Positions 35,419 through 62,478 of a stretch of DNA of 64,000 bases are shown piece by piece. The notes beneath the pieces were generated by a model. It saw only the letters and a list, made by a program, of their open reading frames with translations, was not told where the DNA came from and made no database searches. The position numbers and the translations under genes are program-made. Source of the stretch: Christiangramia echinicola DSM 19838 (GTDB taxonomy: Bacteria > Bacteroidota > Bacteroidia > Flavobacteriales > Flavobacteriaceae); contig NZ_AUHG01000010.1 in NCBI RefSeq assembly GCF_000423065.1, positions 434,001-498,000 of the forward strand, read 5' to 3'. The first letter of the stretch is position 1; every line of letters starts with the position of its first letter.

Positions 35419-35440
35419 TATATTTACGTAATCGATTGCA
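35419..35440 (+). promoter_or_regulatory. susC promoter box with abutting operator
   Basis: TATATTTA (35419-35426) directly joins CGTAATCGATTGCA (35427-35440). A TTG at 35398-35400 gives an 18-nt spacer. A regulator bound here would cover the expected start point. Confidence 0.68.
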
Positions 35441-35465
35441 TTATTAAAATATTAAGAATAATAGA

Positions 35466-35518
35466 AGTTATTCAGCCATAGCATCCCATAATTGGGATTT
35501 TGTGCTGTTTTAATAACT
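35466..35518 (+). promoter_or_regulatory. Structured susC leader
   Basis: AGTTATT (35466-35472) pairs perfectly with AATAACT (35512-35518). It encloses a second hairpin with the stem ATCCC/GGGAT, extended by AGC/GCT outside. It lies in the inferred susC 5' leader. Confidence 0.4.
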
Positions 35519-35618
35519 AATTTTTAACATTTAAACCAAGTGTTTTTTAACCAATACTCGATAAGGTTATAAAAGGAGTGAAAGAGCACTAACTATTAAT
35601 TTTAACTAACTAATTTTT

Positions 35619-38600
35619 ATGGAACAAGTTTTTACTAAAACGATTTCGTTCTTTTCGGGTTTTCCGGAAAATAGGATAAAATATAAGTTACATACCTTTC
35701 TATTGGTATGTGTACTTCTTGGTACAAATATGGTCTTTGCTCAGGATACTGAAATTAATGGTACTGTGGTTGCCGCAGATTCTAAAATGCCGTTAGCCGG
35801 AGTTACTATATTAGAGAAAGGTACTTCTAATGGAGCGGTTACTAATTTTGATGGTGAGTATTCCATTCAGGTATCTGGTCAAGATGCTGTATTAGTATTT
35901 AGTTATGTTGGTTTTCAAACACTCGAGACTAGTGTGGATGGCAGAAGCACTGTTAATATCGACCTTCTTGTAGATTCAAATGCCTTGGATGAGGTTGTTG
36001 TTGTGGGATATGGTACAACCAGAAAATCAGATTTAACGGGTTCTGTAGTATCTATTTCCGGAAATGAATTAGCCGAACAGGGAAGAGCAAGCGTTGCTGA
36101 GGCCTTAACCGGTAGGCTTCCTGGTGTACAGGTACTTTCAACTGAAGGTTCTCCAGATGCCCAGGTTAATATTAGAATTCGAGGGAACGGATCCTTAACT
36201 CAAGATAGTTCACCTCTTATTATTGTAGATGGATTCCCGGTTGGAAGCATGAGTGATATTAGCCCAACAGATATTGCCAGTATTTCCGTTTTAAAAGATG
36301 CCTCCTCTACCGCTATTTACGGTTCCAGAGGGGCTAATGGTGTAATCATCATTACCACCAAAGAAGGAAGAAGTGGTAAAGTAAGTGTGAATTTAAACAC
36401 TTTCTACGGATTTCAAAAAATTGCTAATACGCTGGATGTTTTAAGTCCGGAAGACTTTGTTAAGTGGCAATATGAGTATGCTTTACTTAGAGATTCCGAA
36501 AATATTGACTCCTATGAAAGATATTTTGGCTTGTGGCAGGATTATGATTTATATGAAGGTAAGGAGGGAAATAACTGGCAAAAACAAGTTTACGGCAATA
36601 TGGGTGAAGTTCAGAGCCATGATTTAGCCATTAGAGGAGGTTCTGAGAAAGCCAGCTTCAACTTTAATTATGCTCATTATGATGTTAATACTATCATGAT
36701 TGGTTCGGATTTTAAAAGGGATAACCTATCTCTTGCTTTAAAAAGTCAGGCAGGGGAAAAAGTAGATTTATCCTTTACAGTTAGGTTTTCAGACACAGAG
36801 ATCAACGGAGGAGGAGCTAATGAGCAAAATGAGATTTCTTCTGCAGATTCACGCTTGAAGTATAGTGTTCAATATTCTCCTATTCCAATCTCAGGTCTTA
36901 CCACAACCAGGGCAGATACTGAAGGGGCTGTCGCAAGTTATTTAATAAATCCATTTGTGGCTACAGATGATAACCAAAGACAGCAGCTTAGAAGGAATTA
37001 TAATATGTTAGGAAGTTTTGGTTGGGATATAATTGATAATTTGAGATTCCAATCAGATTTTGGATTGGATTACCGCATAGAACAGGATTACAGGTATTAT
37101 GGTCGCTCTACCTATTACTCAAACAATAGACCGTCTGCAGAAAACCAGGGCTTACCATCTTTGGTTTATAGCGATAGAAAACGTGAGAGTTTCAGGAATG
37201 CTAATACTATTAATTATGATTTCGGCAACTTCCTTAATGAAGACCATAATCTTAAAGTATTATTAGGTGAAGAAATGATCATCACTAAGGATAATGAAGA
37301 AACTTCAGAAATTCAGGGGTTTCCTAATGACTTCGATTTTGAAACTACAAGAAGATTAACAACACAGGGTACTCCTCAATCTGTTGATAATTTTTATCGC
37401 CCGGATGATAAGCTTTTATCATTCTTTGGTCGTGTTAACTATGATTATAAAAGCAAATATTTACTTACTGCTACTTACAGGGCAGATGGTTCAAGTAAAT
37501 TCCTTGGTGATAATCGTTGGGGGTATTTCCCATCGGCTGCAGTAGCTTGGAAGATAAATGAGGAAGCCTTTTTAAATGATGTAGAATGGTTGAATGCTCT
37601 TAAGTTGAGGTTAAGTTATGGAGAGGCTGGTAATAATAATATTCCGGCAGGTCAAACCGTGCAAAGTTTTCAATCTAATACCACTACCTATTTAAATGAA
37701 ATTCCAAATTATTGGTCGGCTTCACGAGTACTGGCTAATCCAAATCTTAAATGGGAAACTACGGTAACTCAAAATGCTGGTCTTGACTTTGAAATGTTCG
37801 ATGGAGTGTTAAGAGGAAGTATTGAGGCCTATAAAAATATAACTACAGACCTGTTACTTGCATTTCGTACTCCTGGATCTGGCTATGATTTTCAATATAG
37901 AAATCTTGGAGAGATCCAGAACACTGGTGTAGAAGGTTCTTTGAATATAAACGCGATTACGAAAGAAGACTACGGATTAAGTTTCGCCTTTAATATGTCT
38001 GCAAACAAGAACAAGATTAATTCCTTAGGTACATTAGAAGATTACCAGGAATACTCTGGCTGGGCTTCTTCACAAATTGGTAGTGATTATGCCGTTTGGG
38101 TTGGCCAACCTGTAGGAGCTATGTATGGTTACAGAAATGACGGTCGTTATGAAGTTTCAGATTTTGACTTTGATCCTGCAACAGACACCTATACGTTGAA
38201 GCCTGATGTGGTAGATAATAGTGATGTTGTTGGCGAGGTAATGCCTGGGTCATTAAAATTGAAGGATATCACTGGCGATGGAGTTGTAGATATAAATGAT
38301 AATTCACTTATTGGCGATGCAAACCCAGATTTTACAGGAGGTTTTGCTATAGATGCGTATGCATACGGATTTGATTTTTCAGCAGCTTTTAATTTTAGCG
38401 TGGGAAATGATGTTTATAACGCAAATAAGGTTCAATTTACAACTGCTAATGAAAACAGCCAGTATAGAAACCTAACTACGGCTATGGCAGATGGCACAAG
38501 GTGGACAAACCTTAACCCTGAAACCGGTGAGCTTATAACCGATCCTGATGCGCTTGCAGCTGCCAATGCAAACACTACTATGTGGTCTCCATATATGCGT

Positions 38601-38879
38601 AATTACGTATTTAGTGATTGGGCAGTAGAAGATGGCTCCTTCCTGAGGTTGAACACACTTACCTTAGGATATACCCTGCCAAATTCACTGGTTTCTAAAT
38701 ATAACATTACGACCCTGAGATTTTACGCGACGGCGAATAATGTATTTATTTTAACTGATTATTCCGGTCTTGATCCTGAAGTTTCTACCAGGAGAAATAC
38801 CCCGCTTACACCGGGAGTTGATTACTCGCCATTTCCGAGAAATAGACAAGTAGTATTCGGTTTAAACCTTAATTTTTAA
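35619..38879 (+). CDS. SusC/RagA-family TonB-linked outer-membrane transporter
   Basis: 1086 residues. The signal peptide (ending TNMVFAQ, about residue 41) is followed by a carboxypeptidase-like domain (about 45-120; GTVVAADSKMPLAGVTILEK). Next come the TonB box/plug (DEVVVVGYGTTRKSDLTGSV and SVAEALTGRLPGVQV) and a 22-strand barrel ending in VVFGLNLNF. It imports oligosaccharides across the outer membrane with the SusD protein that follows 6 nt later. Context indicates oligogalacturonides. Expression is probably under the operator at 35427. Confidence 0.96.
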   Translation: MEQVFTKTISFFSGFPENRIKYKLHTFLLVCVLLGTNMVFAQDTEINGTVVAADSKMPLAGVTILEKGTSNGAVTNFDGEYSIQVSGQDAVLVFSYVGFQTLETSVDGRSTVNIDLLVDSNALDEVVVVGYGTTRKSDLTGSVVSISGNELAEQGRASVAEALTGRLPGVQVLSTEGSPDAQVNIRIRGNGSLTQDSSPLIIVDGFPVGSMSDISPTDIASISVLKDASSTAIYGSRGANGVIIITTKEGRSGKVSVNLNTFYGFQKIANTLDVLSPEDFVKWQYEYALLRDSENIDSYERYFGLWQDYDLYEGKEGNNWQKQVYGNMGEVQSHDLAIRGGSEKASFNFNYAHYDVNTIMIGSDFKRDNLSLALKSQAGEKVDLSFTVRFSDTEINGGGANEQNEISSADSRLKYSVQYSPIPISGLTTTRADTEGAVASYLINPFVATDDNQRQQLRRNYNMLGSFGWDIIDNLRFQSDFGLDYRIEQDYRYYGRSTYYSNNRPSAENQGLPSLVYSDRKRESFRNANTINYDFGNFLNEDHNLKVLLGEEMIITKDNEETSEIQGFPNDFDFETTRRLTTQGTPQSVDNFYRPDDKLLSFFGRVNYDYKSKYLLTATYRADGSSKFLGDNRWGYFPSAAVAWKINEEAFLNDVEWLNALKLRLSYGEAGNNNIPAGQTVQSFQSNTTTYLNEIPNYWSASRVLANPNLKWETTVTQNAGLDFEMFDGVLRGSIEAYKNITTDLLLAFRTPGSGYDFQYRNLGEIQNTGVEGSLNINAITKEDYGLSFAFNMSANKNKINSLGTLEDYQEYSGWASSQIGSDYAVWVGQPVGAMYGYRNDGRYEVSDFDFDPATDTYTLKPDVVDNSDVVGEVMPGSLKLKDITGDGVVDINDNSLIGDANPDFTGGFAIDAYAYGFDFSAAFNFSVGNDVYNANKVQFTTANENSQYRNLTTAMADGTRWTNLNPETGELITDPDALAAANANTTMWSPYMRNYVFSDWAVEDGSFLRLNTLTLGYTLPNSLVSKYNITTLRFYATANNVFILTDYSGLDPEVSTRRNTPLTPGVDYSPFPRNRQVVFGLNLNF

Positions 38880-38885
38880 AATTAG

Positions 38886-40685: not shown

Positions 40686-40716
40686 AATCTAAAAAAACAG
40701 ATTTAATTTATAAATT

Positions 40717-42273: not shown

Positions 42274-42298
42274 TATGTTAGATAAATAGAAATATTGA

Positions 42299-42337
42299 AA
42301 AGGGTATGCATCTTAAAGATGCACACCCTTTTTTTAT
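42299..42337 (+). terminator. Terminator after the susC-susD-binding protein operon
   Basis: AAGGGTATGCATCTT pairs with AAGATGCACACCCTT over 15 bp with one mismatch, followed by a seven-T run. It separates the SusCD unit from the T9SS module protein. Confidence 0.88.
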
Positions 42338-42494
42338 TTGCATAAGCTGAGAAAAGCTGCTAAAAAATTTAATTCGAACTCTGATTTGATTTCAAAGACT
42401 CAGGTCTAGAATTAAGTCAACGTGCTTACAATTAAAGCCGTAAACAATTCTGATGCCAGCGTATGGTACATTTTAAATTTAAATCTTTTATGGA

Positions 42495-48535: not shown

Positions 48536-48577
48536 ACTTTTTTGAAGGTCTAAGGTGTTTTTTGAGTTAGTTTAATT

Positions 48578-48608
48578 AAAAGGTGCGGCAATAAGTCGCA
48601 TCTTTTTT
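48578..48608 (+). terminator. Terminator after PL9
   Basis: AAAAGGTGCG pairs with CGCATCTTTT (one G-U) around a 9-11 nt loop, ending in an eight-T run. Confidence 0.75.
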
Positions 48609-48793
48609 TTCTTAAATCTTCGCTTCTGAAAATGCTGAAATTGGGTTTGTAAAGAACGATTCTATCTAGCTTAAGTCAAAAAATGAATAGTACCAAATTC
48701 AGTACAGAACATATTTAACAAGCTTTAAGTTTGAGAATCCTGCTTTTTTTTGAGGAAAAAATTGTCAAAACTTTAAAAAAGGAAATTTTTCAT

Positions 48794-48815
48794 TATATTC
48801 GTGTAATCGATTGCA
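48794..48815 (+). promoter_or_regulatory. kduI promoter box with abutting LacI-type operator
   Basis: TATATTCG (48794-48801) directly joins TGTAATCGATTGCA (48802-48815), 21 nt before the kduI ATG. It has the same arrangement as at susC and the GH28 gene. Control here would set the whole 11-gene catabolic operon. Confidence 0.72.
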
Positions 48816-48836
48816 TTTGAATTTAAAATTAAAAAT

Positions 48837-49670: not shown

Positions 49671-49676
49671 TTAAAG

Positions 49677-50438
49677 ATGGAACTATTCAATCTAGAAGGT
49701 AAGACAGCACTGGTTACGGGTTGCAAAAGGGGAATTGGTTTTGCAATGGCCGAAGCTCTGGCCGAGGCTGGAGCCGATATTATTGGAGTTTCGGCAAGCC
49801 TGGAAACTTCGGGGTCAGATATTGAAAATGCCGTAGTCGCCAAAGGAAGAAAATTTAAAGGATATCAATGTGATTTTTCCAAACGGGAATCATTACATGA
49901 ATTCATAAAAAAGGTAAAGTCAGAGAACCTTGCCATTGACATTCTTGTTAATAATGCTGGAACAATTTTAAGAGCACCGGCTGCAGAACATTCCGATGAA
50001 TACTGGGATAAGGTGATAGAGGTGAATCAAAGTGCACAATTCATTCTGTCTAGAGAATTTGGAAAGGAAATGATCAAACGAGGTAGCGGAAAAGTGATCT
50101 TTACTGCATCCTTGCTAACCTTTCAGGGAGGTATTACCGTACCGGGATATGCCGCATCCAAAGGAGCTATTGGTCAGCTTACAATGGCACTGTCTAATGA
50201 ATGGGCTGGAAAGGGAGTGCAGGTAAATGCGATTGCACCGGGCTATATCGCTACAGATAATACCGAAGCTTTGAGAAATGATCCTGATAGGAGTGAATCT
50301 ATTCTAGCCAGGATACCTGCCGGACGTTGGGGAAAACCTGAGGATTTTAAAGGCCCTATCATTTTCCTTGCTTCAAAAGCAAGTGACTACATGAGTGGTG
50401 CTATCCTTACCGTTGATGGTGGATGGATGGGACGCTAA
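49677..50438 (+). CDS. kduD: 2-dehydro-3-deoxy-D-gluconate 5-dehydrogenase (SDR)
   Basis: 253 residues. SDR motifs are the cofactor loop TGCKRGIGFAMAEAL, NNAG (VNNAGTILRAPA) and the active site YAASKGAIGQ. The product ends with the usual TVDGGWMGR. It reduces 3-deoxy-D-glycero-2,5-hexodiulosonate to 2-keto-3-deoxygluconate (KDG), the step after KduI. The direct kduI-kduD pairing makes the specific assignment strong. Confidence 0.95.
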   Translation: MELFNLEGKTALVTGCKRGIGFAMAEALAEAGADIIGVSASLETSGSDIENAVVAKGRKFKGYQCDFSKRESLHEFIKKVKSENLAIDILVNNAGTILRAPAAEHSDEYWDKVIEVNQSAQFILSREFGKEMIKRGSGKVIFTASLLTFQGGITVPGYAASKGAIGQLTMALSNEWAGKGVQVNAIAPGYIATDNTEALRNDPDRSESILARIPAGRWGKPEDFKGPIIFLASKASDYMSGAILTVDGGWMGR

Positions 50439-50484
50439 TTAGTCAATTTTATTGACTGAATGGATTAATGAGAAAAATTAGAAC

Positions 50485-51888
50485 ATGGAAAATAAGACAT
50501 TTATAAAAGATAATTTTCTGCTTCAAAACAAATATTCGGAGGAGCTATATGAGAAATATGCTGCCAAACAGCCAATCATAGATTATCATAATCATTTACC
50601 GCCGAAGGATATTGCCGAGGATAGACATTTTGAAAATATTACGCAGGTCTGGCTGAATGGCGATCATTATAAATGGCGTGCCATGCGTACCATGGGGGTA
50701 GATGAAAAGTTTATTACCGGTGATGCTTCAGATAAGGAAAAGTTTCTTGCCTGGGCTAAAACTGTTCCCCATACACTTAGAAATCCTTTATATCACTGGA
50801 CACATCTCGAGTTAAAGCGATATTTCGGAATAGATGAATTGTTGAACGAAGATTCTGCAGAACGTATATATGATGAAGTGAATCGGCAGTTACAATTACC
50901 AGAAAATTCATGTCGGGGTCTGCTGAAAAAGATGAATGTAAAAACTTTGTGCACTACTGAAGATCCGGTAGATACATTGGAGTATCATCAACAGCTTGCT
51001 AATAGTGATTTCAGTATTAAGGTTAGCACTGCTTTTAGACCAGACAAATCTATTCTTATTGCGAATGAAAATTATTCAGAATATATAAAAGATCTGGGTA
51101 AGGCATCAGATATTCAAATATCTTCTTATGATGATCTGAAAAATGCACTTCGTAGCCGAATAGAATATTTCCATAAAAATGGATGTAGACTTTGTGATCA
51201 CGGCTTGAATTATATCTCCTTTGAAGATTTTTCTGCTGAGGAGATAAATGGAATTTTTGAAAAGAAACTGAACGGTAAATCTTTGACAGATCTTGAAGCG
51301 GAAAAGTTTCATACTTCAATTCTACTTTTCCTTTGTGAAACCTATCATGAGTTTGGCTGGGTACAGCAATTTCACCTTGGAGCCCTAAGGAACAATAATA
51401 AAAGAATGCTAAAGGAGCTTGGTCCTGATACTGGCTGGGATTCTATCGCAGATTATAGCCAGGCAGAGAATCTTTCTGCATTCCTGGATGCATTGGACGG
51501 CAAGGATAAACTCACCAAAACGATCCTTTACAATCTAAACCCTTCAGATAATGAGATCTTTGCAACCATGATAGGGAATTTCAATGACGGAAGTATTAAA
51601 GGGAAAGTTCAATTTGGTTCGGGCTGGTGGTTTCTGGATCAAAAGGATGGTATCATCAAACAATTGAATGCCTTGTCTAATATGGGACTGGTTAGTTGTT
51701 TTATTGGAATGCTTACCGATTCAAGAAGTTTTCTCTCATTTCCACGTCATGAATACTTTAGAAGAGTATTGTGTAATTTGTTTGGGGAAGAAATGGAAAG
51801 CGGTGAGCTTCCAGATGACATGGAGCTTGTAGGGAAAACCATCTCCAATATTTCTTATCATAACGCTGAAGAATATTTTAACTTTTAA
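50485..51888 (+). CDS. uxaC: Uronate isomerase
   Basis: 467 residues, usual length. The amidohydrolase-like N-terminal metal motif IIDYHNHLPPKDIAEDR is visible. Further family blocks are CTTEDPVDTLEYH and FGSGWWFLDQKDG with LTDSRSFLSFPRHEYFRR near the end. It isomerises D-galacturonate to D-tagaturonate (and glucuronate to fructuronate). With UxaB and UxaA encoded downstream it opens the saturated galacturonate branch. The stop overlaps the kdgK ATG. Confidence 0.96.
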   Translation: MENKTFIKDNFLLQNKYSEELYEKYAAKQPIIDYHNHLPPKDIAEDRHFENITQVWLNGDHYKWRAMRTMGVDEKFITGDASDKEKFLAWAKTVPHTLRNPLYHWTHLELKRYFGIDELLNEDSAERIYDEVNRQLQLPENSCRGLLKKMNVKTLCTTEDPVDTLEYHQQLANSDFSIKVSTAFRPDKSILIANENYSEYIKDLGKASDIQISSYDDLKNALRSRIEYFHKNGCRLCDHGLNYISFEDFSAEEINGIFEKKLNGKSLTDLEAEKFHTSILLFLCETYHEFGWVQQFHLGALRNNNKRMLKELGPDTGWDSIADYSQAENLSAFLDALDGKDKLTKTILYNLNPSDNEIFATMIGNFNDGSIKGKVQFGSGWWFLDQKDGIIKQLNALSNMGLVSCFIGMLTDSRSFLSFPRHEYFRRVLCNLFGEEMESGELPDDMELVGKTISNISYHNAEEYFNF

Positions 51889-52913
51889 TGGAGCAGGAGA
51901 AAACGAATACAGCAAAGATCGTCACTTTTGGAGAAGTGCTTATGAGGCTTTCACCTTCTGAACATAGAAAACTTCAACAGGCACATCAAATGGATTTTTT
52001 CTTTGGTGGTACCGAAATGAACGTGGCAGCTTCACTTGCTCAATTTGGTTTAAAAACCCAGCATATTACCAATGTTTCTAATGACTTGGTGGGCGATGCA
52101 GCCATTGCTGCTATGCGTCAGGTTGGGATCGAGGTTTCTGCGGTTAATAAGGTAGAGCATCCTCTTGGACTGTATTTTCTTGAAGTTGGTTCTTCCGCCC
52201 GTTCCAGTAAAATCGCCTATAACAGGCTTCACGGAGCATTTGCTAATATTTTACCAGAGCAGGTGAATTGGGAAGAAATATTAAAGGATTGTACTCATTT
52301 TCACTGGACCGGGATCACCCCGGCAATTTCAGAAGGTGCTTATGCAACCTTAAAGGAAGGTTTAAAAGTAGCCAGGAAAAATGGAATTGTAGTGACGGCA
52401 GATCCGGCTTATCGAAGTAATTTATGGAAATATGGAAAAGATGGCTATAAGATTTTAAAGGAGCTGGTCTCTTCCTCTACAATTTTCATAGGTGGAGTGA
52501 ACGAGATCAATGAGATCCTTGGGACTAATTTTTCTTTTAATAAGGAAGATTTTATTAAGGCGAGTAAAAAACTAATGGAGGAATGTCCTTCAATTGAAAA
52601 AGTTTTTGATAAAGTTAGAACAGGATTAAGCGCTTCCTGGCAGAAAATTTATGGACAGGCCTGGACTGGAAAAGTATACATATCAACCATCGAACTTGAA
52701 ATCACTTCAGTGGTGGACAGAATAGGAACAGGTGACGCATATGCCGCCGGTATTCTTTATGGACTTAAGAATTATGATGATCAAAAAACGCTTGATTTTG
52801 CCAATGCAGCCTGTGCTTTAAAACACACAATTCTGGGAGATGCTAACCTGGTAAGTGTAGAAGAAGTTTTAGAAGTAATGGAAGGCAGGACCGGTGGCAG
52901 GATTAAAAGATAA
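51888..52913 (+). CDS. kdgK: 2-keto-3-deoxygluconate kinase (PfkB family)
   Basis: 341 residues. The PfkB sugar-kinase pattern includes GGTEMNVAASLAQFGL near the N-terminus and the anion-hole/catalytic motif VVDRIGTGDAYAAGILYGL with the base Asp. It phosphorylates KDG to KDPG, where the two uronate branches meet. It overlaps uxaC by one base, and the aldolase gene follows after 42 nt. Position between uxaC and kdgA makes KdgK the best call among PfkB kinases. Confidence 0.92.
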   Translation: MEQEKTNTAKIVTFGEVLMRLSPSEHRKLQQAHQMDFFFGGTEMNVAASLAQFGLKTQHITNVSNDLVGDAAIAAMRQVGIEVSAVNKVEHPLGLYFLEVGSSARSSKIAYNRLHGAFANILPEQVNWEEILKDCTHFHWTGITPAISEGAYATLKEGLKVARKNGIVVTADPAYRSNLWKYGKDGYKILKELVSSSTIFIGGVNEINEILGTNFSFNKEDFIKASKKLMEECPSIEKVFDKVRTGLSASWQKIYGQAWTGKVYISTIELEITSVVDRIGTGDAYAAGILYGLKNYDDQKTLDFANAACALKHTILGDANLVSVEEVLEVMEGRTGGRIKR

Positions 52914-52955
52914 GTATACAAATCACAGGAGATAATCCTGAAAAGAAATATAAGA

Positions 52956-53627
52956 ATGGCAAAATATACTAGAATTGAGGTTGCTCAAACTATGAAAGAA
53001 ATGGGAATTGTACCTGTTTTTTATGACGGCGATCTTGAGGTTTGCAAAAAATTAGTTGAAGCCTGTTATCAAGGTGGCGCCAGGGTTTTTGAATTTACTA
53101 ACCGGGGTGATTTTGCACATAAAGTTTTTGATGAATTAAACATCTATGTTCAGAAGAATTTTAAGGAAATGATATTAGGAGTAGGCTCTGTGATAGATCC
53201 AGGTACAACTTCAATATATATACAGCTGGGAGCGAATTTTATTGTCTCTCCAATTGTAAATCCTGAAATGGCTAAAACCTGTAATCGTAGAAAGATAGCC
53301 TGGATGCCGGGTTGCGGTTCGGTTTCTGAAATTTCGTATGCCGAAGAACTAGGTGCTGAGGTGGTAAAGATATTTCCAGGAAGTCAGGTTGGAGGGCCTT
53401 CTTTTGTGAAAGCTGTAAAAGGTCCTTTTCCATGGAGTAGTATTATGCCCACAGGAGGTGTGAGTCCTACTATAGAAAATCTGGCAGAATGGTTTGATGC
53501 GGGAGTTCACTGTGTTGGGATCGGCTCAAAGCTTTTTGTAAGGAAAGAAAATGGTGAGTATGATTATGAAGCTATTTCAAAGAAGGTAAAATCTTCAATT
53601 GAGATCGTACAAAGTTTGAGGAAATGA
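52956..53627 (+). CDS. kdgA: KDPG aldolase (bifunctional KHG/KDPG aldolase)
   Basis: 223 residues. The class I aldolase TIM barrel is recognised by the N-terminal GIVPVFYDGDLEVCKKLVEA and the Schiff-base Lys in AEVVKIFPGSQVGGPSF. The final phosphate loop reads MPTGGVSPTIENLAEWFDAG. It splits KDPG into pyruvate and glyceraldehyde-3-phosphate. The stop overlaps the DctP start by 4 nt, tying catabolism to transport on one message. Confidence 0.94.
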   Translation: MAKYTRIEVAQTMKEMGIVPVFYDGDLEVCKKLVEACYQGGARVFEFTNRGDFAHKVFDELNIYVQKNFKEMILGVGSVIDPGTTSIYIQLGANFIVSPIVNPEMAKTCNRRKIAWMPGCGSVSEISYAEELGAEVVKIFPGSQVGGPSFVKAVKGPFPWSSIMPTGGVSPTIENLAEWFDAGVHCVGIGSKLFVRKENGEYDYEAISKKVKSSIEIVQSLRK

Positions 53628-54616
53628 GCGTGAGAAAACAGGATATACTTAAAAGAACATTTCTTATGCTTCTTTTCATTTTCGCAACACTTGGTTGTGA
53701 AAGATATAGTGATACCCGGGTTATAAAGCTGGGGCATGGGCTGGATATCAGTCACCCGGTGCATAAAGCGATGATCTTTATGGGGGAACGGGTAAAGGAG
53801 AAATCTGGAGGTAGAATGCAAATAGATATTTATCCTAATCAGCAGCTGGGTTCAGAAAGAGAATGTCTCGAGCTACTCCAGATTGGTAGCCTTGGAATGA
53901 CCAAGGTTTCTACCGGAGTAATGGAAAATTTTGCGCCTGGACTTAAAGTATTCGGACTTCCGTTTTTATTCCGGGACCGCGAGCATAGATTCAATGTTCT
54001 GGAAGGAGAAATAGGAGAAATGTTCCTTAATTCCAGTTTAGATAAAAGATTAAAAGGGCTCACCTTTTATGATGCCGGAAGCCGTAGTTTTTATACCAAG
54101 GAACCAATTAAGACACCAAAGGACCTGGAAGGGCTTAAGATCAGGGTAATGGAAAGTCAGACTGCTATTAACATGGTTAAGAACCTTGGAGGATCGCCAA
54201 CTCCTATCGCCTGGGGTGAATTATATACAGCACTTCAACAGGGAATCGTAGATGGGGCAGAGAATAATCTGCCCAGTTTTCATTTATCCAGGCATTACGA
54301 GGTTTGTAAATATTTTCTGGTAGACGAACATACTGCGCTGCCAGATGAATTAGTGATAGGGACACCTGTCTGGAATAAACTTTCTGCGGAAGAAAAGCAA
54401 TGGCTTAAAGAAGCCGCTATGGAATCCTCAGAATACCAAAAGAAATTATGGCGTGAAGCTGAATTGGAAGCTCTAGAGAAGATCAAGGAAGCCGGAGTAA
54501 CAGTGATCAATGCCGATAAAGAGGAATTCAGAAGTATGGTAAAACCCATGTATGACGAATTTGGACTGGACCCGAAAATGAAAAATATTATTGAAGAAAT
54601 ACAAGCTGTACAATGA
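53624..54616 (+). CDS. TRAP transporter substrate-binding protein (DctP-like lipoprotein)
   Basis: 330 residues. A lipobox FATLGC (Cys near 26) replaces the usual soluble signal, so the protein should be tethered to the inner membrane. DctP-family blocks are visible: DISHPVHKAMIFMGERVKEK, YPNQQLGSERECLELLQ, LEGLKIRVMESQ with the carboxylate-binding Arg, and LQQGIVDGAENN. It delivers a uronate or related acid to the permease pair that follows. Coupled by 4-nt overlaps on both sides. Confidence 0.93.
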   Translation: MSVRKQDILKRTFLMLLFIFATLGCERYSDTRVIKLGHGLDISHPVHKAMIFMGERVKEKSGGRMQIDIYPNQQLGSERECLELLQIGSLGMTKVSTGVMENFAPGLKVFGLPFLFRDREHRFNVLEGEIGEMFLNSSLDKRLKGLTFYDAGSRSFYTKEPIKTPKDLEGLKIRVMESQTAINMVKNLGGSPTPIAWGELYTALQQGIVDGAENNLPSFHLSRHYEVCKYFLVDEHTALPDELVIGTPVWNKLSAEEKQWLKEAAMESSEYQKKLWREAELEALEKIKEAGVTVINADKEEFRSMVKPMYDEFGLDPKMKNIIEEIQAVQ

Positions 54617-55080
54617 AAAAAAGATTGGATAAGACATTAGGTACTATTCTGGTTTTTCTAATGACTATTATGGTTGTCGCAGTTTTGTGGCAGGTATTTT
54701 CCAGGTACGTAATGCAATCTCCAAGTTCAATAACAGAGGAACTGGCCAGGTATTTACTAATATGGATAGGTATCCTTGGAGCGGCATATGCTGCCGGCCA
54801 GCAGGAACATCTTGCTATAAATTTACTGGAAGAAAAATTAGAAAAAAAGAATAAGAGGAAGCTTAGGATCATAATAAATGTACTAATAATATTCTTTGGT
54901 ATCACTGTCCTTATTATTGGTGGTGGCAATCTGGTGTATGTTAATTATGAATTGGGGCAGAGTTCTGCAGCTTTGGAAATTCCTTTATACATAGTTTATC
55001 TGGTAGTTCCTTTTAGCGGAATTCTGGTGATTATCTACAAGATCAATGAAATTATGAACCCGGAAAAATATTTAGTATGA
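54613..55080 (+). CDS. TRAP transporter small permease (DctQ)
   Basis: 155 residues with four membrane helices. The DctQ-type sequence VLWQVFSRYVMQSPSSITEELARYLLIWIGILGAAYA is characteristic. It overlaps both neighbours by 4 nt and pairs with the DctM subunit. Confidence 0.93.
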   Translation: MKKRLDKTLGTILVFLMTIMVVAVLWQVFSRYVMQSPSSITEELARYLLIWIGILGAAYAAGQQEHLAINLLEEKLEKKNKRKLRIIINVLIIFFGITVLIIGGGNLVYVNYELGQSSAALEIPLYIVYLVVPFSGILVIIYKINEIMNPEKYLV

Positions 55081-56366
55081 TATCTGAAATTTTAATTCTG
55101 GTAATTTCGTTCGTGGTTCTACTTGCTATCGGTGTACCGGTAGCCTGGTCTATAGGATTATCCTGTTTGTTCACGATGCTGGCAAGCATAGATTCACTAG
55201 CTGCCTTTACAACGGTTTCTCAAAGGATGGCTACAGGCCTGGATAGTTTTTCCTTACTTGCTATCCCCTTCTTTATCCTGGCCGGCCAGATAATGAACCA
55301 GGGAGGTATAGCCAACCGGTTAATAAATTTTGCTAAGGCATTAATAGGTTCTCTGCCCGGGGGGCTGGTATATGTAAATGTTATCGCGGCAATGCTTTTT
55401 GGAGCAATATCTGGTTCTGCAGTAGCAGCGGCGTCGGCGATAGGTGGAATTCTTGGGCCACCAATGGAAAAGGAAAATTATTCCCGCGAATTTGGCGCAG
55501 CTATTAATGTAACCTCTTCAACTACCGGACTGGTAATTCCACCTTCGAATGTACTCATTGTATATTCCCTGGCAAGTGGAGGTGTTTCTATCGCTTCGTT
55601 ATTCCTGGCAGGATATCTACCGGGTATATTAATGGGACTGGCCTTGATGCTGGTAGCAGCTGTATGGATAAAGAAAAAGAAATATCCGGCGGGGAATGCC
55701 AGCAGTTTCGGACTCATTATTTCGACTTTTTTAAAGGCTTTGCCAAGTTTATTATTGTTAGTTGTGGTTATTGGAGGGATAGTTTCTGGAATATTTACCG
55801 CCACAGAAGCTTCTGGAATTGCCGTGTTATACTGCCTTGTGCTTTCAATGATATATGGGGAGCTTAATAGAAGTATGCTCCATAAAGTTTTCCTTAGCTC
55901 TATTAGCACTACCGCCATCGTTATGTTACTTATTGCTACTTCTATGAGTATGTCTTGGGTAATGTCTTATGAAAATATCCCTCAAACGGTGAGTGAGGCT
56001 CTACTGGCCCTAAGCGATAATAAATATGTGATTCTGCTTATCATAAACCTTTTATTGTTATTCGTGGGGACCTTTATGGATATGACCCCGGCAGTTCTGA
56101 TTTTTACCCCAATATTTTTACCGGTAATGGAGAATTTAGGAGTAGATCCTGTTCATTTCGGGATCATCATGGTGATGAATTTATGTGTTGGACTTTGTAC
56201 ACCACCTGTTGGCTCCGTACTTTTTATTGGAGTAGGAGTAGCCAAAACCACTATTCAAAAAGTTATAAAACCCTTGCTGCCACTATATGTGGTCATGGCA
56301 ATAGTATTGTTAATGGTGACTTTTATTCCGGCGATCAGTCTTTGGTTACCAGAATTATTTGATTAA
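55077..56366 (+). CDS. TRAP transporter large permease (DctM)
   Basis: 429 residues with about 12 membrane helices. Family signature stretches are SFSLLAIPFFILAGQIMNQG, GAISGSAVAAASAIGGILGP and HFGIIMVMNLCVGLCTPPVG. It is the Na+-coupled transmembrane channel of the uronate importer. A TRAP system inside a SusCD pectin locus is less common than MFS or SSS permeases in this phylum. uxaB follows after 17 nt. Confidence 0.95.
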   Translation: MISEILILVISFVVLLAIGVPVAWSIGLSCLFTMLASIDSLAAFTTVSQRMATGLDSFSLLAIPFFILAGQIMNQGGIANRLINFAKALIGSLPGGLVYVNVIAAMLFGAISGSAVAAASAIGGILGPPMEKENYSREFGAAINVTSSTTGLVIPPSNVLIVYSLASGGVSIASLFLAGYLPGILMGLALMLVAAVWIKKKKYPAGNASSFGLIISTFLKALPSLLLLVVVIGGIVSGIFTATEASGIAVLYCLVLSMIYGELNRSMLHKVFLSSISTTAIVMLLIATSMSMSWVMSYENIPQTVSEALLALSDNKYVILLIINLLLLFVGTFMDMTPAVLIFTPIFLPVMENLGVDPVHFGIIMVMNLCVGLCTPPVGSVLFIGVGVAKTTIQKVIKPLLPLYVVMAIVLLMVTFIPAISLWLPELFD

Positions 56367-56383
56367 AATTTAATATTCTGAAA

Positions 56384-57853
56384 ATGGAAAATATTAAAGC
56401 AAAGAGACTAAACAGAGATAATGCGGGAATTACTGAAAAGCTTCCCATTAAAATAGTTCAGTACGGGGAAGGTAACTTTTTGAGAGCCTTCGTAGATTAC
56501 CTGGTCAATAAACTTAATAATGAAGCCGATTTTAATGCCGGGGTTGCAGTGATACAGCCCTTACCGGGTGGAATGATAATCGTTCTTAATGAGCAGGATG
56601 GAATTTATAACCTTTTTATGAAAGGCATAAAGCAAGGTAAGGAAATCCAGGAGAATGAATTGATAACCTGCATTCAGAAAGGCTATGATCCGTATAAGGA
56701 TTATGATGAATATCTTGAACTTGCAAAGGAAGAAGAATTGGAGTTTTTAATTTCCAATACTACTGAAGCCGGAATAGCTTATAATGAAAATGACAAATTT
56801 CAGGAATATCCTCATCAAAGTTTTCCTGCCAAGGTAACTGCGCTACTTTATAAAAGGTTTCAACATTTCAATGCAGCTCCAGATAAAGGTCTTACCATTA
56901 TTCCATGTGAACTTATCAACCATAACGCCGATAATCTAAAGAAGATTATTTTACGCTATGCTGAAAGTTGGAATCTGGATAAAGAATTTGTTAACTGGAT
57001 CCATGAGCATAATAGTTTTCATAATACCCTCGTAGACCGTATTGTTCCTGGATACCCAAAGGAAGATATCGATAGTTACCAGAGCCAGCTGGAGTTGGAA
57101 GATACATTGATCGTTTCTGCGGAAGTATTTTTGCTTTGGGTTATTGAAGGAGGAGCAGCGCTTAAAGCTAAAATTCCGTTCGATAAGATCGATGAAAATG
57201 TGCTTATTGTTGAGGACCTTCAACCGTATCGTACGCGAAAAGTCCGTATATTGAATGGAGCTCATACCACCATGGTACCATTCTCAATTTTATTCGGTAA
57301 TGAAACCGTAAAAGAAACGGTAGATCATGAATTTACTGGTGATTTTATTAAAAAAGCAGTGTTCGAGGAGATCAATCCTACCTTATCCCTTTCTTCTAAA
57401 GAATTGAACTCTTTTGCTGAAGAGGTTTTCGACAGGTTTAGAAATCCATTTATCAAACATCAGCTCTCTAGCATAGCCCTGAATAGTATTTCTAAATTTA
57501 AGGTTAGAGTACTGCCTAGTCTTTTAGGTTTTGTGAAAAAATTCAATCGATTGCCCTTAAGACTTACCTTTGCCTTTGCTTGTTTGATTAGGTTCTATGA
57601 TGGAAAATGGAAGGGACAAAGTCTTCCTGTAAAAGATGATGAAAAGTCTGTTACAGCGATGAGAGAAATATGGGAATTGCATAGTTATAATGAGATAGCG
57701 GGTAGGGTTTTGGGAAAAACCGATTTCTGGGATTTAGATCTTAACGAGATTCCCGAATTAAAGGAAAAGATAGCATATGCCCTGGAGGTAATAGACAATA
57801 AAGGAATTGAAAATGGTTTTAAGGTCTTTACTGAAAAATATACCCAGGCTTAA
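56384..57853 (+). CDS. uxaB: Tagaturonate reductase (altronate oxidoreductase)
   Basis: 489 residues, the usual length of the mannitol dehydrogenase-like family. The N-terminal cofactor region IVQYGEGNFLRAFVDYLVNK and the catalytic-region sequence KVRILNGAHTTMVPFSILFG (Lys...Asn-x-x-His) are visible. It reduces D-tagaturonate to D-altronate with NADH. The uxaC and uxaA neighbours favour UxaB over fructuronate reductase UxuB. Coupled to uxaA 12 nt later. Confidence 0.94.
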   Translation: MENIKAKRLNRDNAGITEKLPIKIVQYGEGNFLRAFVDYLVNKLNNEADFNAGVAVIQPLPGGMIIVLNEQDGIYNLFMKGIKQGKEIQENELITCIQKGYDPYKDYDEYLELAKEEELEFLISNTTEAGIAYNENDKFQEYPHQSFPAKVTALLYKRFQHFNAAPDKGLTIIPCELINHNADNLKKIILRYAESWNLDKEFVNWIHEHNSFHNTLVDRIVPGYPKEDIDSYQSQLELEDTLIVSAEVFLLWVIEGGAALKAKIPFDKIDENVLIVEDLQPYRTRKVRILNGAHTTMVPFSILFGNETVKETVDHEFTGDFIKKAVFEEINPTLSLSSKELNSFAEEVFDRFRNPFIKHQLSSIALNSISKFKVRVLPSLLGFVKKFNRLPLRLTFAFACLIRFYDGKWKGQSLPVKDDEKSVTAMREIWELHSYNEIAGRVLGKTDFWDLDLNEIPELKEKIAYALEVIDNKGIENGFKVFTEKYTQA

Positions 57854-57865
57854 AAAATTGTAGTG

Positions 57866-59482
57866 ATGAAGAGTAAACTTATTAAAGTACATGAAAGTGA
57901 TAATGTCGCCATTGCCCTGGTAGATCTTTTTCAGGGTGATAAAGTCGAGTTTGAAGGGGAAATGATAATTATACTTTCAGACGTCAAGGCCAAGCATAAA
58001 ATTAGTATGGTAGATCTTGCCGCGGAAGATAAGATTTATATGTACGGAGTGCTCGTGGGGAAAGCAACGGAAGAAATCAAGAGAGGCGGAGTTCTCACAG
58101 TTGACAATGTTAAACACGAAGCCAGCCAGACATTCCAGAAATCTGAAATTACCCAATGGCAGGCTCCTGATATTTCTAAATGGAAAGACCGTACTTTTAT
58201 GGGATATCATCGTCCAGACGGACAGGTAGGAACAGCCAATGTATGGTTATTCTTCCCACTTGTTTTTTGTGAAAACAGAAATGTTGAATTGCTGAAAGAT
58301 ATCTTTGAAAAAGAATTTTCTTTTCATAAATCTCCAAAACAGCGCCAGTTACTTCGAAATCTTATTAGTGGAAAAGATGAGGATGCCAATGTAGAATTTG
58401 AAGAGGAAGAAGCCGGAGTTTTCGATAATATAGAGGTGAAATTCATCACCCATCAGGGTGGCTGTGGAGGTATCAGGCAGGATTCTGTAATGCTATCTAA
58501 ACTTCTGGCCGGCTACGTAAATAATCCGAATGTTGCGGGAGCCACCGTTCTTAGTCTTGGTTGTCAAAACCTGCAGATAGATATTTTCAAAAATGCCCTT
58601 GATGAGATAAATTCTGAAATAGAGAAACCGGTTCTTATCTATGAGCAACAACAAATGGGAACCGTAGATGAAATGCTGAATACCATAATTCGCGATTCTT
58701 TTGAAGGGATTAAAAAGGCGAATGAAATTAAAAGGGAACCTGCGCCACTTTCTAAACTAAAATTAGGATTGGAGTGCGGAGGCTCTGATGGTTTCTCTGG
58801 AATTTCTGCAAATCCTGCTTTGGGATATACTTCAGATTTGTTGTCTGCTTTGGGAGGCTCGCCAATACTATCTGAATTCCCCGAACTTTGCGGAGTGGAA
58901 CAGGAACTGGTGAACCGATGTACAGATGAAGAAACGGCCGACAAATTCATGAAATTGATGAAGTCTTATGAAAATGCGGCTGAAGCGGCAGGTTCAGGTT
59001 TCGATATGAATCCTTCTCCCGGGAATATTAAAGATGGATTAATTACCGATGCCATGAAATCGGCTGGTGCTGCTAAAAAAGGTGGTACATCACCTATAGC
59101 AGCCGTGCTGGATTATGGAGAATATGTTACAAAACCCGGACTCAATTTATTATGTACCCCGGGAAATGACGTGGAAAGTACCACTGGGATGGTAGGTTCG
59201 GGAGCAAACGTGGTGGTATTCACTACGGGGCTGGGCACACCAACAGGAAACCCTATTGCACCGGTTATTAAGATGTCATCTAACTCAACTCTTGCTCGCA
59301 GAATGCCAGATATCATCGATGTAGACTCAGGAGCGGTTATAAGAGGGGAGAAAACGATCCCTGAAATGGGAGAAGAACTTTTTGAATATATTATTCAAGT
59401 GGCTAGTGGAGAGATTAAGTCTAAAGCAGACCAGTTAAATCAGAATGATTTTATCCCCTGGAAAAGAGGAGTATCATTATAA
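57866..59482 (+). CDS. uxaA: Altronate dehydratase
   Basis: 538 residues from ATG 57866; the frame opens one codon earlier with GTG. An N-terminal SAF-like domain (about 5-90) joins the UxaA catalytic region (GYHRPDGQVGTANVWLFFP; THQGGCGGIRQDSVMLSKLL; GLECGGSDGFSGISANPALG). It dehydrates D-altronate to KDG using Fe2+. It is a full-length single chain, not split. It completes the saturated galacturonate branch to KDG. Confidence 0.95.
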   Translation: MKSKLIKVHESDNVAIALVDLFQGDKVEFEGEMIIILSDVKAKHKISMVDLAAEDKIYMYGVLVGKATEEIKRGGVLTVDNVKHEASQTFQKSEITQWQAPDISKWKDRTFMGYHRPDGQVGTANVWLFFPLVFCENRNVELLKDIFEKEFSFHKSPKQRQLLRNLISGKDEDANVEFEEEEAGVFDNIEVKFITHQGGCGGIRQDSVMLSKLLAGYVNNPNVAGATVLSLGCQNLQIDIFKNALDEINSEIEKPVLIYEQQQMGTVDEMLNTIIRDSFEGIKKANEIKREPAPLSKLKLGLECGGSDGFSGISANPALGYTSDLLSALGGSPILSEFPELCGVEQELVNRCTDEETADKFMKLMKSYENAAEAAGSGFDMNPSPGNIKDGLITDAMKSAGAAKKGGTSPIAAVLDYGEYVTKPGLNLLCTPGNDVESTTGMVGSGANVVVFTTGLGTPTGNPIAPVIKMSSNSTLARRMPDIIDVDSGAVIRGEKTIPEMGEELFEYIIQVASGEIKSKADQLNQNDFIPWKRGVSL

Positions 59483-59491
59483 ATTTATTTA

Positions 59492-60667
59492 ATGCAAGCG
59501 ATAAAGGTTGGGATTATAGGTTCAGGATTTGCCGCAAGGTTTCATTATGAGGCGCTGAAGCGAGTTTACGGGGTTAAATTGGAAATTATAGGTGCTTTTT
59601 CCAGGAATCCTGAAAATCTCAATGCGTTTTGTGATGAAAATAACCTACCTGCTTTTTCTTCAGTAGAAAAGTTGATTGACCAGGCTGAAGTACTTCATCT
59701 ATGTACTCCGCCTGTTACTCACGAAGATTTATGTGTCAAAATTCTTGAACGCGATAAATATGCGATCGTTGAAAAACCTCTTACGGGGTATTTTGGTGAG
59801 GACGAAAAAAATTTTTCAGGTGATACTTTCTCCAGGGAATCAGGCTTAAAAAAGAGCCTCCAGAGTTTAAAGAATATCCTACAGGCTGAAGATAAGAGTA
59901 AAGCCGGAATCCTATATGCCGAGAATTGGATCTACGCTCCGGCTATTCAAAAGGAAAAAGAGGTAATAGAAAAAACGAAATCACAGATCCTTTGGATTCA
60001 GGCGCAGCAATCTCATTCAGGATCGCATTCCCTGGATTATGGAAAATGGAGGCTCTCCGGCGGAGGTTCGCTAATGGGAAAAGGATGTCATCCGCTTTCA
60101 GGGGCAATTTATCTTAAACACGTAGAAGGGCGTAGCAAAAATGGGAAGCCTATCAGGCCAAAATCTGTTAGTTGCAGAGTTCATGCTATTACCCGCATGG
60201 ATAATTACAAAAATAATCCGCATTTAAGGGATTCTTATACAGATGTAGAAGATTATGCATTCACACATGTAGTTTTTGAAGATGGAACAGTTGCCGATAT
60301 TACTGCCAGTGAATTACTTCATGGTGGAGTTAAGAATTATCTGGAAGTTCACGCACATAACCACCGCACTATATGTAATCTTACTTCAAATAACGCTATG
60401 CAAACCTATAATCCGGAGGAAGAAAACTTTAAGGATATTTATGTGGTTGAAAAGACCGGGACCAAACAGGGCTGGTCCAATATTTCTCCAGACGAGGCAT
60501 GGTTTAATGGGTATCAGGCCGAGATGGAAGCTTTCTACAATTCTATAGCAAATGGAGAGGCTCCTGAAAGTGACAGCACGCTGGCTGCAGATGTGATAAG
60601 TACCATTTACTCTGCCTATCTTTCTGCAGAACGAAAAGGGCTGGAAGTTGAAATTAAGCAGCTCTGA
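59492..60667 (+). CDS. Gfo/Idh/MocA-family oxidoreductase
   Basis: 391 residues. The N-terminal NAD(P) motif GIIGSGFAARFHYEALKRV and the conserved EKPL (YAIVEKPLTGYF) are intact. The second half contains HSGSHSLDYGKWRLSGGGSLMGKGCHPLSG, with a possible catalytic His. The substrate cannot be read from sequence. As last gene of the uronate operon it may process a galacturonate-derived or side-chain sugar. It ends 2 nt from the convergent lacI stop, leaving no room for a terminator between them. Confidence 0.88.
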   Translation: MQAIKVGIIGSGFAARFHYEALKRVYGVKLEIIGAFSRNPENLNAFCDENNLPAFSSVEKLIDQAEVLHLCTPPVTHEDLCVKILERDKYAIVEKPLTGYFGEDEKNFSGDTFSRESGLKKSLQSLKNILQAEDKSKAGILYAENWIYAPAIQKEKEVIEKTKSQILWIQAQQSHSGSHSLDYGKWRLSGGGSLMGKGCHPLSGAIYLKHVEGRSKNGKPIRPKSVSCRVHAITRMDNYKNNPHLRDSYTDVEDYAFTHVVFEDGTVADITASELLHGGVKNYLEVHAHNHRTICNLTSNNAMQTYNPEEENFKDIYVVEKTGTKQGWSNISPDEAWFNGYQAEMEAFYNSIANGEAPESDSTLAADVISTIYSAYLSAERKGLEVEIKQL

Positions 60668-60669
60668 TC

Positions 60670-61719
60670 TTAGACCGCGTTCTCCAGGTTAATTAATTTT
60701 CTATTTGAAGAATTCCGGATGAATAGTTCCGGAGGTAGAACTACTCTTTTTTCTACGCTAATGGTTTTGTCTTCTTTCACCTGTTCAAGAAAAACCTGTG
60801 CTGCAATTTTACCCATCATTTGTGGTGTTTGATCCATTGACGTAATGGGTAGTTCCATATATTTGGTAAATGGCTCATTACTGAAGCCAACCACGCAAAC
60901 ATCTTTGGGAATATTTATTTTCCGGGATTTTAGTTCCTGTATGGCGCCAAGTGCCGCATAATCACCAGCAGAAAAGATCGCATCGGGTTTTTGCTCCAGC
61001 TCCCATAGCTCTTCTACGGCCTGAATTCCAGATTCAATTTTACTACTGGTTTGGATAACGTAGGCAGGATTAAATTCAATTTCATTATCCTTCAGCGCTG
61101 CCTTAAAGCCTTCAAACCTGTTTTTATAAATTTCTAGATTAATATCTCCCGAAAGATGGGCAATTCTTCTGCAACCTTCTTTTATCAAATGATCAGTAGC
61201 CATATATCCCGCTTTATAATCGTCCAGTACTACCGAACTAACTCCGGGAACATCTATCTTTCTATCAAAGAAGACCAGCGGGGTACCTTCTTCCTGTATC
61301 TTTTTAATATGTTCCGTAGTTTGGGTTGTCTTAGAAACAGACATGAAAATACCGTCGATCTGGGTATTTAATAGAGCATTGATTTGTTCAGCTTCATTCG
61401 CCACTTCTTCGTGAGACTGGCAGATAATTATATGGTAGCCGTGTGGGGTTAGTTCTTCTTCAATTCCGCGGATTACTGATGAGAAAAAACTACGATTAAT
61501 ATAAGGGACTATTACTCCAACGTTATTCGTCCTTCCTTTTTTAAGGGCCTGAGCCAGTCGGTTTTGTTTATAATTCATTTCAGCGGCCGTCTTGGCAACA
61601 AGTTTCCTGGTCTTTTCGCTGATTTTAGGATTATTATTTAAAGCCCGTGAAACAGTAGCAGCACTGATATTTAACCTTTTTGAAATATCATAGATGGTGA
61701 CTTTTTCTTTATTTTTCAT
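60670..61719 (-). CDS. LacI-family transcriptional regulator (right side of pectin locus)
   Basis: 349 residues. The helix-turn-helix is IYDISKRLNISAATVSRALN, followed by the hinge and a sugar-binding sensor domain (NVGVIVPYINRSFFSSVIRG). Its DNA-reading helix resembles that of the left LacI protein (AATVSRALN versus VSTVSKALN), so they may read the same operator. A copy, AGTAATCGATTACA (61875-61888), lies about 155 nt upstream of its start. Tail-to-tail with the oxidoreductase gene. Confidence 0.92.
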   Translation of the reverse strand: MKNKEKVTIYDISKRLNISAATVSRALNNNPKISEKTRKLVAKTAAEMNYKQNRLAQALKKGRTNNVGVIVPYINRSFFSSVIRGIEEELTPHGYHIIICQSHEEVANEAEQINALLNTQIDGIFMSVSKTTQTTEHIKKIQEEGTPLVFFDRKIDVPGVSSVVLDDYKAGYMATDHLIKEGCRRIAHLSGDINLEIYKNRFEGFKAALKDNEIEFNPAYVIQTSSKIESGIQAVEELWELEQKPDAIFSAGDYAALGAIQELKSRKINIPKDVCVVGFSNEPFTKYMELPITSMDQTPQMMGKIAAQVFLEQVKEDKTISVEKRVVLPPELFIRNSSNRKLINLENAV

Positions 61720-61874
61720 TTAGGCTGGATTAGGACTGGGAATAGATTGAGTATATGTTCTGAATTGAAGGTGCAAAAATATGACTTTTAATCCTTTAAT
61801 AAAATATTTACTCACTTACATAAGGATTAAAAAATCCAATAATTTAGGAAAATTAGTGAAATTTCATTTAATTA

Positions 61875-61888
61875 AGTAATCGATTACA
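61875..61888. promoter_or_regulatory. LacI-type operator upstream of the right lacI gene
   Basis: AGTAATCGATTACA matches 13 of 14 positions of TGTAATCGATTACA. It lies about 155 nt upstream of the lacI start, within the 61720-62487 gap. Confidence 0.62.
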
Positions 61889-62456
61889 AAAAAAATCGAA
61901 ATATCCTTATTTTTTAAAAAAGACCTGTTTATTTTATTAATATGGTGAGCATTTTTAAAAACGCCAAGTGGCCTATTAATGCTATTCCGGATTTCTGAAA
62001 AAATGAAACCCATGTTTAAACAAAGATTGAATTTTATAAAGAGAAACTTTTTCTACAAGAATTCTTAATAGGAATGCTACCGTTTTTAGCTTAGGCTGGT
62101 CTCGGAAAAAGATCTGAGTTCGAGTCATTTTTATTTAGGCAGGCCGATGCTGGCCTATGCATAGACCGTTTTTATCAATACTGAAATATCTTCTTTGTTC
62201 AAACCTGAAGTCCGATATAACTGTATTCAGTCCCCTATGGGCAAAGCAAATAATTCCGATGGAGATAGAGAAAATTACCATGCATAAGGTGCTGGCCGGT
62301 AATGATAAATGGGATTCAACTGGAAGATTAGGTAAATAACTACATATTTAATTGTCTAAAGGTGTTATTAATACTTTTTTCGTAGTAAAAACTATCAATC
62401 TATAACAGGTTAATAATTTTTCAATGAAAAAATTATGTAAACTGGTGTAGCTTTAC

Positions 62457-62478
62457 TATTTTAGTGCAATCGATTACA
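62457..62478 (+). promoter_or_regulatory. GH28 promoter box with abutting LacI-type operator
   Basis: TATTTTAG (62457-62464) directly joins TGCAATCGATTACA (62465-62478), 9 nt before the ATG at 62488. The operator overlaps the first codons of the longer reading frame that opens at 62464, which shows that 62488 is the true start. Confidence 0.72.

Follow-up and report, generated by a model that had tools for sequence, protein, structure and literature searches.

The window analysed here, a 64,000-nucleotide stretch of the Christiangramia echinicola DSM 19838 genome (C1:434001-498000; genome size 3.51 Mb), contains a pectin and galacturonate utilisation locus in which three 22-bp composites precede susC, kduI and a GH28 hydrolase gene. 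In each composite, a 14-bp palindrome of the LacI-family operator type follows immediately on the -7 half of a Bacteroidetes sigma-A promoter (family-wide TTTG, 18-20 nt, TAnnTTTG). Very probably the palindrome is bound by LacI-right, a LacI/GalR-family protein encoded in the locus, which would repress at the transcription start and be released by a uronate intermediate, with an upstream operator strengthening repression. This reading rests on the sites themselves, the promoter elements and their fixed spacing, conservation in relatives and co-occurrence with LacI-right. The promoter elements and predicted operators are as follows, in window positions, with genomes other than the own one given as G numbers.

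35397..35400, + strand: TTTG, the -33 element at susC, separated by 18 nt from the -7 box, at the spacing of a family-wide peak.
35419..35426, + strand: -7 box TATATTTA of the susC promoter, also present in all four genus relatives shown, as well as in G111.
35427..35440, + strand: predicted operator CGTAATCGATTGCA at susC, conserved, covering the expected start at about 35431-35432.
35243..35256, no strand assigned: second predicted operator TGTTATCGATTACA, box-less, located 39 bp before lacI-left; the susC operator follows 184 bp downstream.
48794..48801, + strand: -7 box TATATTCG of the kduI promoter, identical in five of six relatives shown.
48802..48815, + strand: predicted operator TGTAATCGATTGCA at kduI, ending 22 bp before the kduI ATG.
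62457..62464, + strand: -7 box TATTTTAG of the GH28 promoter, from the composite match and the relatives compared.
62465..62478, + strand: predicted operator TGCAATCGATTACA before GH28, whose ATG is at 62488.
61875..61888, + strand: predicted operator AGTAATCGATTACA, 156 bp upstream of lacI-right, probably in the promoter of a decayed pectinesterase gene.

The five palindromes and the three abutting boxes reported in an earlier note on this DNA were all found at the positions given there. The palindrome TGYAATCGATTRCA is matched perfectly at 48802 and 62465 and with one mismatch each at 35243, 35427 and 61875. At this stringency the genome holds no further copies, so that all five lie inside the locus; the pattern read backwards gives one place. 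At up to two mismatches there were 33 places genome-wide vs 15 for the backwards pattern, so that the palindrome is specific only at up to one mismatch and weaker sites cannot be trusted individually; in the window alone, 14 matches at up to three mismatches were not above the chance mean of 10.3. Exact matches to the composite TAWWTTNNNGNAATCGATTNC number three in the whole genome and are the susC, kduI and GH28 promoters, rather than many copies at unrelated genes. Chance as the source of the matches is rejected by the reversed controls. At GH28, a GTG at 62464 is a mechanical open reading frame start and the conserved ATG lies at 62488, which places the operator just upstream of the gene. 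TGYAATCGATTRCA is an even palindrome with a central CG, which is the norm for LacI-family sites (PMC4052901; published statements here and below are taken from extracts of the papers cited).

The proposal that the box is a -7 element was borne out: it fits the Bacteroidetes sigma-A consensus TAnnTTTG, each of the three own boxes matching five of the six fixed positions, and family-wide it is accompanied by a -33 TTTG at the right spacing. In a sample of 299 Flavobacteriaceae genomes, the pattern TANNTTNNNGYAATCGATTRC matched 127 times in 43 genomes and 4 times when reversed (a site with boxes on both flanks being scored twice), and its open positions were often filled as TATATTTG, the canonical Bacteroidetes -7 element. 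A spacing-free scan of the same genomes for TTTG, a gap of 0-30 and a half-site gave at least 150 matches; among the 150 listed, TTTG stood at the abutting gap in 37 and peaked again at gaps 27-29, with 30 matches, compared with about three at each of the remaining 28 gaps (maximum 7). The second peak corresponds to a -33 TTTG with an 18-20 nt spacer, which in the own genome is present as a full TTTG at susC only.

The absence of a gap was then evaluated at 45 loci chosen for carrying or adjoining lacI-right and not for a box, with 82 distinct sites and hence 164 flanks. A box, defined as TA plus at least five of the six positions of TAnnTTTG, directly abutted the 14-mer on 47 of the 164 flanks. 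Gaps 1-49 averaged 2.2 flanks, and the next-highest were gap 42 (14 flanks) and gap 9 (9 flanks). The profile of 161 composites reads TAtaTTtG, with columns biased by the selection for TA and at least five of six positions. The promoter geometry of the composite is unusually rigid. As a separate and unexplained observation, -7-like boxes at these loci form a secondary peak 42-43 nt before the sites (14 and 7 flanks). A palindrome held so constantly next to the -7 element might also be read as a feature for an activator or sigma factor, that is, an extended promoter element that involves no repressor. I consider this hardly credible, as box-less copies lie upstream of composites, many within ~250 bp, the palindrome tracks the LacI orthologue rather than the pathway, and palindromes with a central CG are the site type of LacI proteins (PMC4052901).

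In F. johnsoniae, transcripts begin 4-5 nt past the -7 element TAHHTTTG, which occupies -12 to -5 (PMC6847099), a position also supported by data from F. psychrophilum (PMC9723704). With this spacing, the 14-mer would by analogy cover about -4 to +10 and hence the start site. The earlier note had a bound repressor covering the start; the published spacing sustains the placement of the operator over the start, and the bound repressor is a prediction. Without substrate, LacI-right (a dimer by family analogy) would sit on the operator and block RNA polymerase at susC, kduI and GH28, and formerly at the pectinesterase promoter. During pectin use, a galacturonate- or ketodeoxygluconate-type intermediate, the identity of which is suggested by the operon, would release LacI-right, and uptake, uronate catabolism and pectin hydrolysis would be induced together. 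The operator 184 bp upstream of the susC operator would probably strengthen repression, possibly via looping.

Two LacI proteins are encoded in the locus:

60670..61719, - strand: LacI-right, LacI/GalR family, proposed cognate repressor by its domains and by co-occurrence.
34170..35204, - strand: LacI-left, a LacI paralogue by Pfam, genus-restricted in the genomes sampled, 31% identical to LacI-right.

LacI-right belongs to the LacI/GalR family by its domains (PF00356 at 49.9 bits with a cut-off of 27, plus PF00532 and PF13377), and LacI-left has the same Pfam families, with a helix-turn-helix and a periplasmic-binding-like domain. LacI-right orthologues form a separate score class of 42 of the 299 genomes at 54-100% identity, the best match of the other genomes reaching 46%. 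The composite occurs in 40 of the 42 genomes with the orthologue vs 3 of the 257 without (Fisher p ~1e-43). uxaC is present in 115 of the 299 genomes, including all 42 with LacI-right, and among these 115 the composite occurs in 40 of 42 with LacI-right vs 2 of 73 without (p ~5e-26); both p values are indicative only, as related genomes are not independent. Presence of the pathway as the cause of the co-occurrence is rejected by this control, in which 71 of the 73 uxaC genomes that lack LacI-right also lack the composite. One of the two genomes with the orthologue that the composite search missed (G144) carries, at GH28, an operator with an abutting TATTTTCG, one base off the search core. The co-occurrence thus supports LacI-right as the binder. 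Co-occurrence is not binding, and G266 keeps a composite in the absence of LacI-right, so that another conserved DNA-binding protein might be the one that uses the operator; this is very unlikely, given that a scan of all 19 genes of the stretch lacI-left to GH28 against Pfam or NCBIfam found no regulator besides the two LacI proteins and that the composite is absent from those 71 uxaC genomes.

In a second sample of named genomes, found by LacI-right alone and probably overlapping partly with the 299-genome set, a site lay within 10 kb in 30 of 32 Bacteroidetes loci. The two others were a contig with 187 bases before lacI and Chryseobacterium piscicola; four Bacillota loci had no site within that range, and reversed sequence gave none in all 36 loci. 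Among named genomes, LacI-right has its nearest relatives in Gramella/Christiangramia (81-84%) and Gillisia (82%), followed by Salegentibacter, Zunongwangia, Mesonia and others, in a listing that may omit close neighbours of the own genome. Of 66 LacI-right orthologues of at least 52% identity, 64 retain the recognition helix AATVSRA. In relatives, sites precede kduI, susC, GH28, uxaC, PL9-type and lacI genes. Several genomes have sites 57-86 bp before the lacI-right orthologue, with the composite in three of them, which may bear on autoregulation of the repressor gene; in the own genome the distance is 156 bp, and the pectinesterase promoter shares the site. Before more distant LacI relatives of Pedobacter and Mucilaginibacter (39-41%), TGCAATCGGTTGCA or GGCAATCGATTGCA was seen 45-91 bp before the aligned lacI start without an abutting box, TGCAATCGGTTGCA lying shortly upstream of lacI in the Pedobacter relatives at 41%. 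From these sites, the motif may be older than the fused geometry.

Several findings weigh against LacI-right as the repressor at these promoters. The own kduI and GH28 promoters have no TTTG at the expected -33 spacing, and kduI of G302 has no abutting box. G014 has a LacI-right orthologue, standing apart from uronate genes, and no composite; no site with a central CG at up to two mismatches was found in the 20 kb around its lacI gene. Conversely, single composites occur without LacI-right in G037, in G012 (inside an open reading frame) and in G266, a genome of the same genus, where the composite precedes a 91% identical uxaC; here another protein may use it, or it may be an orphan operator. 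LacI-right is moreover one of four LacI proteins in the own genome, and one LacI below 52% identity also carries the AATVSRA helix. The G266 site lies near 9692 of G266:C1:800000-819999, before the uxaC gene run and next to unrelated genes.

The earlier note let both LacI proteins bind the palindromes, a claim that fares well for LacI-right, by co-occurrence with the composite, and badly for LacI-left. LacI-left is encoded 39 bp from one palindrome and is itself a LacI-family protein; of 24 genus genomes, four have it at this locus (own, G320, G314 and G306), and all four have LacI-right; its 46% identical relative in G266 has a AATCGATT-centred palindrome ~160 bp upstream. Against binding by LacI-left, or by both proteins jointly, no orthologue above 46% was found in the 299 family genomes other than the own one, and yet the composite is widespread; the recognition helix is of the STVSKA type rather than AATVSRA; and the palindrome beside lacI-left is kept at the same place in G111, where lacI-left is absent. 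LacI-left was consequently rejected as a general binder on distribution, helix and persistence of the site without the gene, and its involvement, alone or jointly, is unlikely, although it may bind the palindrome as an unsupported option. A palindrome scan covered 13 loci, namely 11 LacI-left relatives and two other own LacI genes, and found the AATCGATT-type palindrome in 1 of the 11 relatives; in two relatives and one own LacI locus (L125, L127, L167) the result is that of a whole-locus scan for perfect palindromes only. Close to another own LacI gene (own C2, near 660403) stands a perfect ACGAAAACGTTTTCGT palindrome, which represents another type of operator.

Two of the five sites had been labelled by the LacI genes next to them and are better read in another way. 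The site at 35243 is better read as an auxiliary operator and upstream partner of the susC operator, from which it lies 184 bp away in the own genome, G320, G314 and G306 and 185 bp away in G111, which lacks lacI-left. The site at 61875 probably served as operator in the promoter of a pectinesterase gene that has since decayed and of which a remnant was found between lacI-right and GH28:

61954..62336, + strand: pectinesterase (CE8-type) gene remnant, pieces in different frames with stops, by tblastn.

Compared with the G320 protein, the remnant pieces show 54-59% identity (best E 1.9e-15), with a further weak piece from 61907 (E 0.27), and an open pectinesterase-like frame lies just downstream of the equivalent operator in four genus relatives and G111, with PF01095 for the G320 frame. 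The operator is preceded by TTAATTTA in three of the four genus relatives shown, by CATTCAATTA in G320, by a TAATTTA-like sequence in G111 and by TTTAATTA in the own genome. G302, without such an open frame, has a two-mismatch operator upstream of lacI-right, 174 bp from the GH28 operator.

The last two bases of the -7 box are specific to each promoter across the species compared, with TATATTTA at susC, TATATTCG at kduI (except in G302) and TATTTTAG at GH28. As an observation, this suggests tuned promoter strength. In G304, a TACTTTAG composite resembles the GH28 promoter and is not followed by GH28. The divergent lacI-right/susC region of that genome (G304:C1:2356000-2375999) has three operators at 8067, 8246 and 8436, spaced by 179 and 190, two of which have -7 boxes.

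Second sites with a central CG and up to two mismatches were searched within 420 bp of 148 composites, which gave 63 rows, 54 upstream and 9 downstream, with mutual pairs counted twice. Upstream distances clustered near 143, 153, 164, 174-177, 184-186 and 194-198, others being 134, 148, 160, 201-249 and above 320. Taking one pair per clade at 130-200 bp, the Rayleigh statistic at a period of 10.58 was R 0.68 (p 0.0003, n=24), where the clades are my own grouping and the range was picked after seeing the data; distinct distances in this first set gave p 0.003, and 0.14 for 130-260. With three further pairs (184, 179, 190; a fourth new pair, 174 in G302, was left out of the statistic), R fell to 0.56 (p 0.0013, n=27; p 0.006 for 130-260), and with each distinct distance counted once p was 0.06, and 0.33 for 130-260. 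This weakening, together with the grouping and the post hoc range, leaves looping between helically phased operator pairs as a hypothesis for which the spacings are suggestive but not conclusive. Published inter-site peaks for the LacI family generally, at 13, 22 and 32 bp, differ from the spacings of the pairs here (PMC4052901).

A further site lies inside a gene of the locus:

57542..57555, + strand: candidate intragenic operator TTCAATCGATTGCC in uxaB (56384-57853), two mismatches.

At this site 17 of 65 aligned uxaB genes encode Arg, 16 of the 17 by CGA, which makes up 12% of the Arg codons in the same genes; the 16 genes come from related genomes and are not independent. The DNA remains a palindrome even though the first residue of the site is variable, and a coding-sequence operator in uxaB is possible. 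One might go on to picture a lac-like multi-operator system on the Bacteroidetes promoter class, with the operator at the start site directly joined to the -7 box, a phased looping partner ~143-196 bp upstream and a third operator in uxaB kept by DNA selection in one clade, by which uptake, hydrolases and uronate catabolism would form one switch across dozens of flavobacterial genera. This wider picture is tentative, and I regard it as somewhat doubtful.

The genes of the locus run, in order, lacI-left, susC, susD, a gene for a DUF4957/DUF5123 protein, one for a large secreted protein with a Por sorting tail, one for a Pel9A-like protein, then kduI, kduD, uxaC, kdgK, eda, a TRAP transporter, uxaB, uxaA, a Gfo/Idh oxidoreductase gene, lacI-right and GH28:

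35619..38879, + strand: susC, SusC/RagA TonB-linked receptor (TIGR04056).
38886-40685, following susC: susD (PF07980).
48837..60667, + strand: uronate gene run kduI, kduD, uxaC, kdgK, eda, TRAP dctPQM, uxaB, uxaA and Gfo/Idh oxidoreductase, by domain and family matches.
62488..63915, + strand: GH28 hydrolase, by family match.

After GH28, beyond the window, follow DUF4861, GH88/105-type, GH43, Pel9A-like, GDSL esterase, pectinesterase, pectic acid lyase and second GH28 genes.

For pectin utilisation in Flavobacteriaceae, the analysis thus names a likely cognate regulator together with an operator and the exact geometry of the promoter. With a zero gap, start sites and regulon members can be predicted directly from sequence, and the composite offers a natural template for inducible Bacteroidetes promoters. 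No flavobacterial pectin LacI operator was seen by title or abstract start in the open-licence literature searched, and literature occurrences of the operator sequence strings were, by title and abstract start, not on Bacteroidetes; on this scope, neither the Flavobacteriaceae regulon nor the constant joining of its operator to the -7 element was found in print.

The arrangement resembles that of E. coli LacI, in which a primary operator at the start site (lacO1) is joined by auxiliary operators, one of them inside a structural gene, as may also be the case here, on a different promoter class. The C-terminal tail of LacI-right is short, presumably too short for the tetramer helix of E. coli LacI. 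The closest solved sequences are CcpA/PurR (1rzr, E 1.9e-53; 1jh9, E 1.7e-38), which share family and full-length architecture with LacI-right; these are global or purine regulators with co-repressors, and orthology is not indicated. GH109, which becomes relevant below, I take to be of Gfo/Idh type.

In kind, the system is a known one, that of LacI-family local regulators with CG-centred palindromes, which includes predicted Bacteroides uronate regulators and Algoriphagus UxuR2. The Bacteroides regulators KdgR (BT0487), UxaR (BT0824) and UxuR (BT1434) have predicted LacI-family uronate regulons (PMC3878776, PMC4052901) and are alike in family, phylum and pathway (galacturonate, glucuronate, ketodeoxygluconate); they were reconstructed in Bacteroides, and the likeness is one of family and pathway, not of motif or orthology. 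UxuR2 of Algoriphagus marincola HL-49 (PMC5507952) is likewise a LacI-family regulator, with a TRAP uronate transporter and a GH109 gene among uronate genes, a likeness in family and gene content of which motif and promoter position are not part. The B. theta rhamnogalacturonan and pectin loci are, in the extracts used, under hybrid two-component system (HTCS) regulators, whereas here susC, hydrolases and catabolism would be under one shared operator. Work on engineered B. theta promoters found most LacI-type operators inadequate when used singly; a pair was required, with one copy between the -33 and -7 elements and the other at the start (PMC9259675); the start-site operator is common to the natural pairs described here, in which the second operator lies much further upstream.

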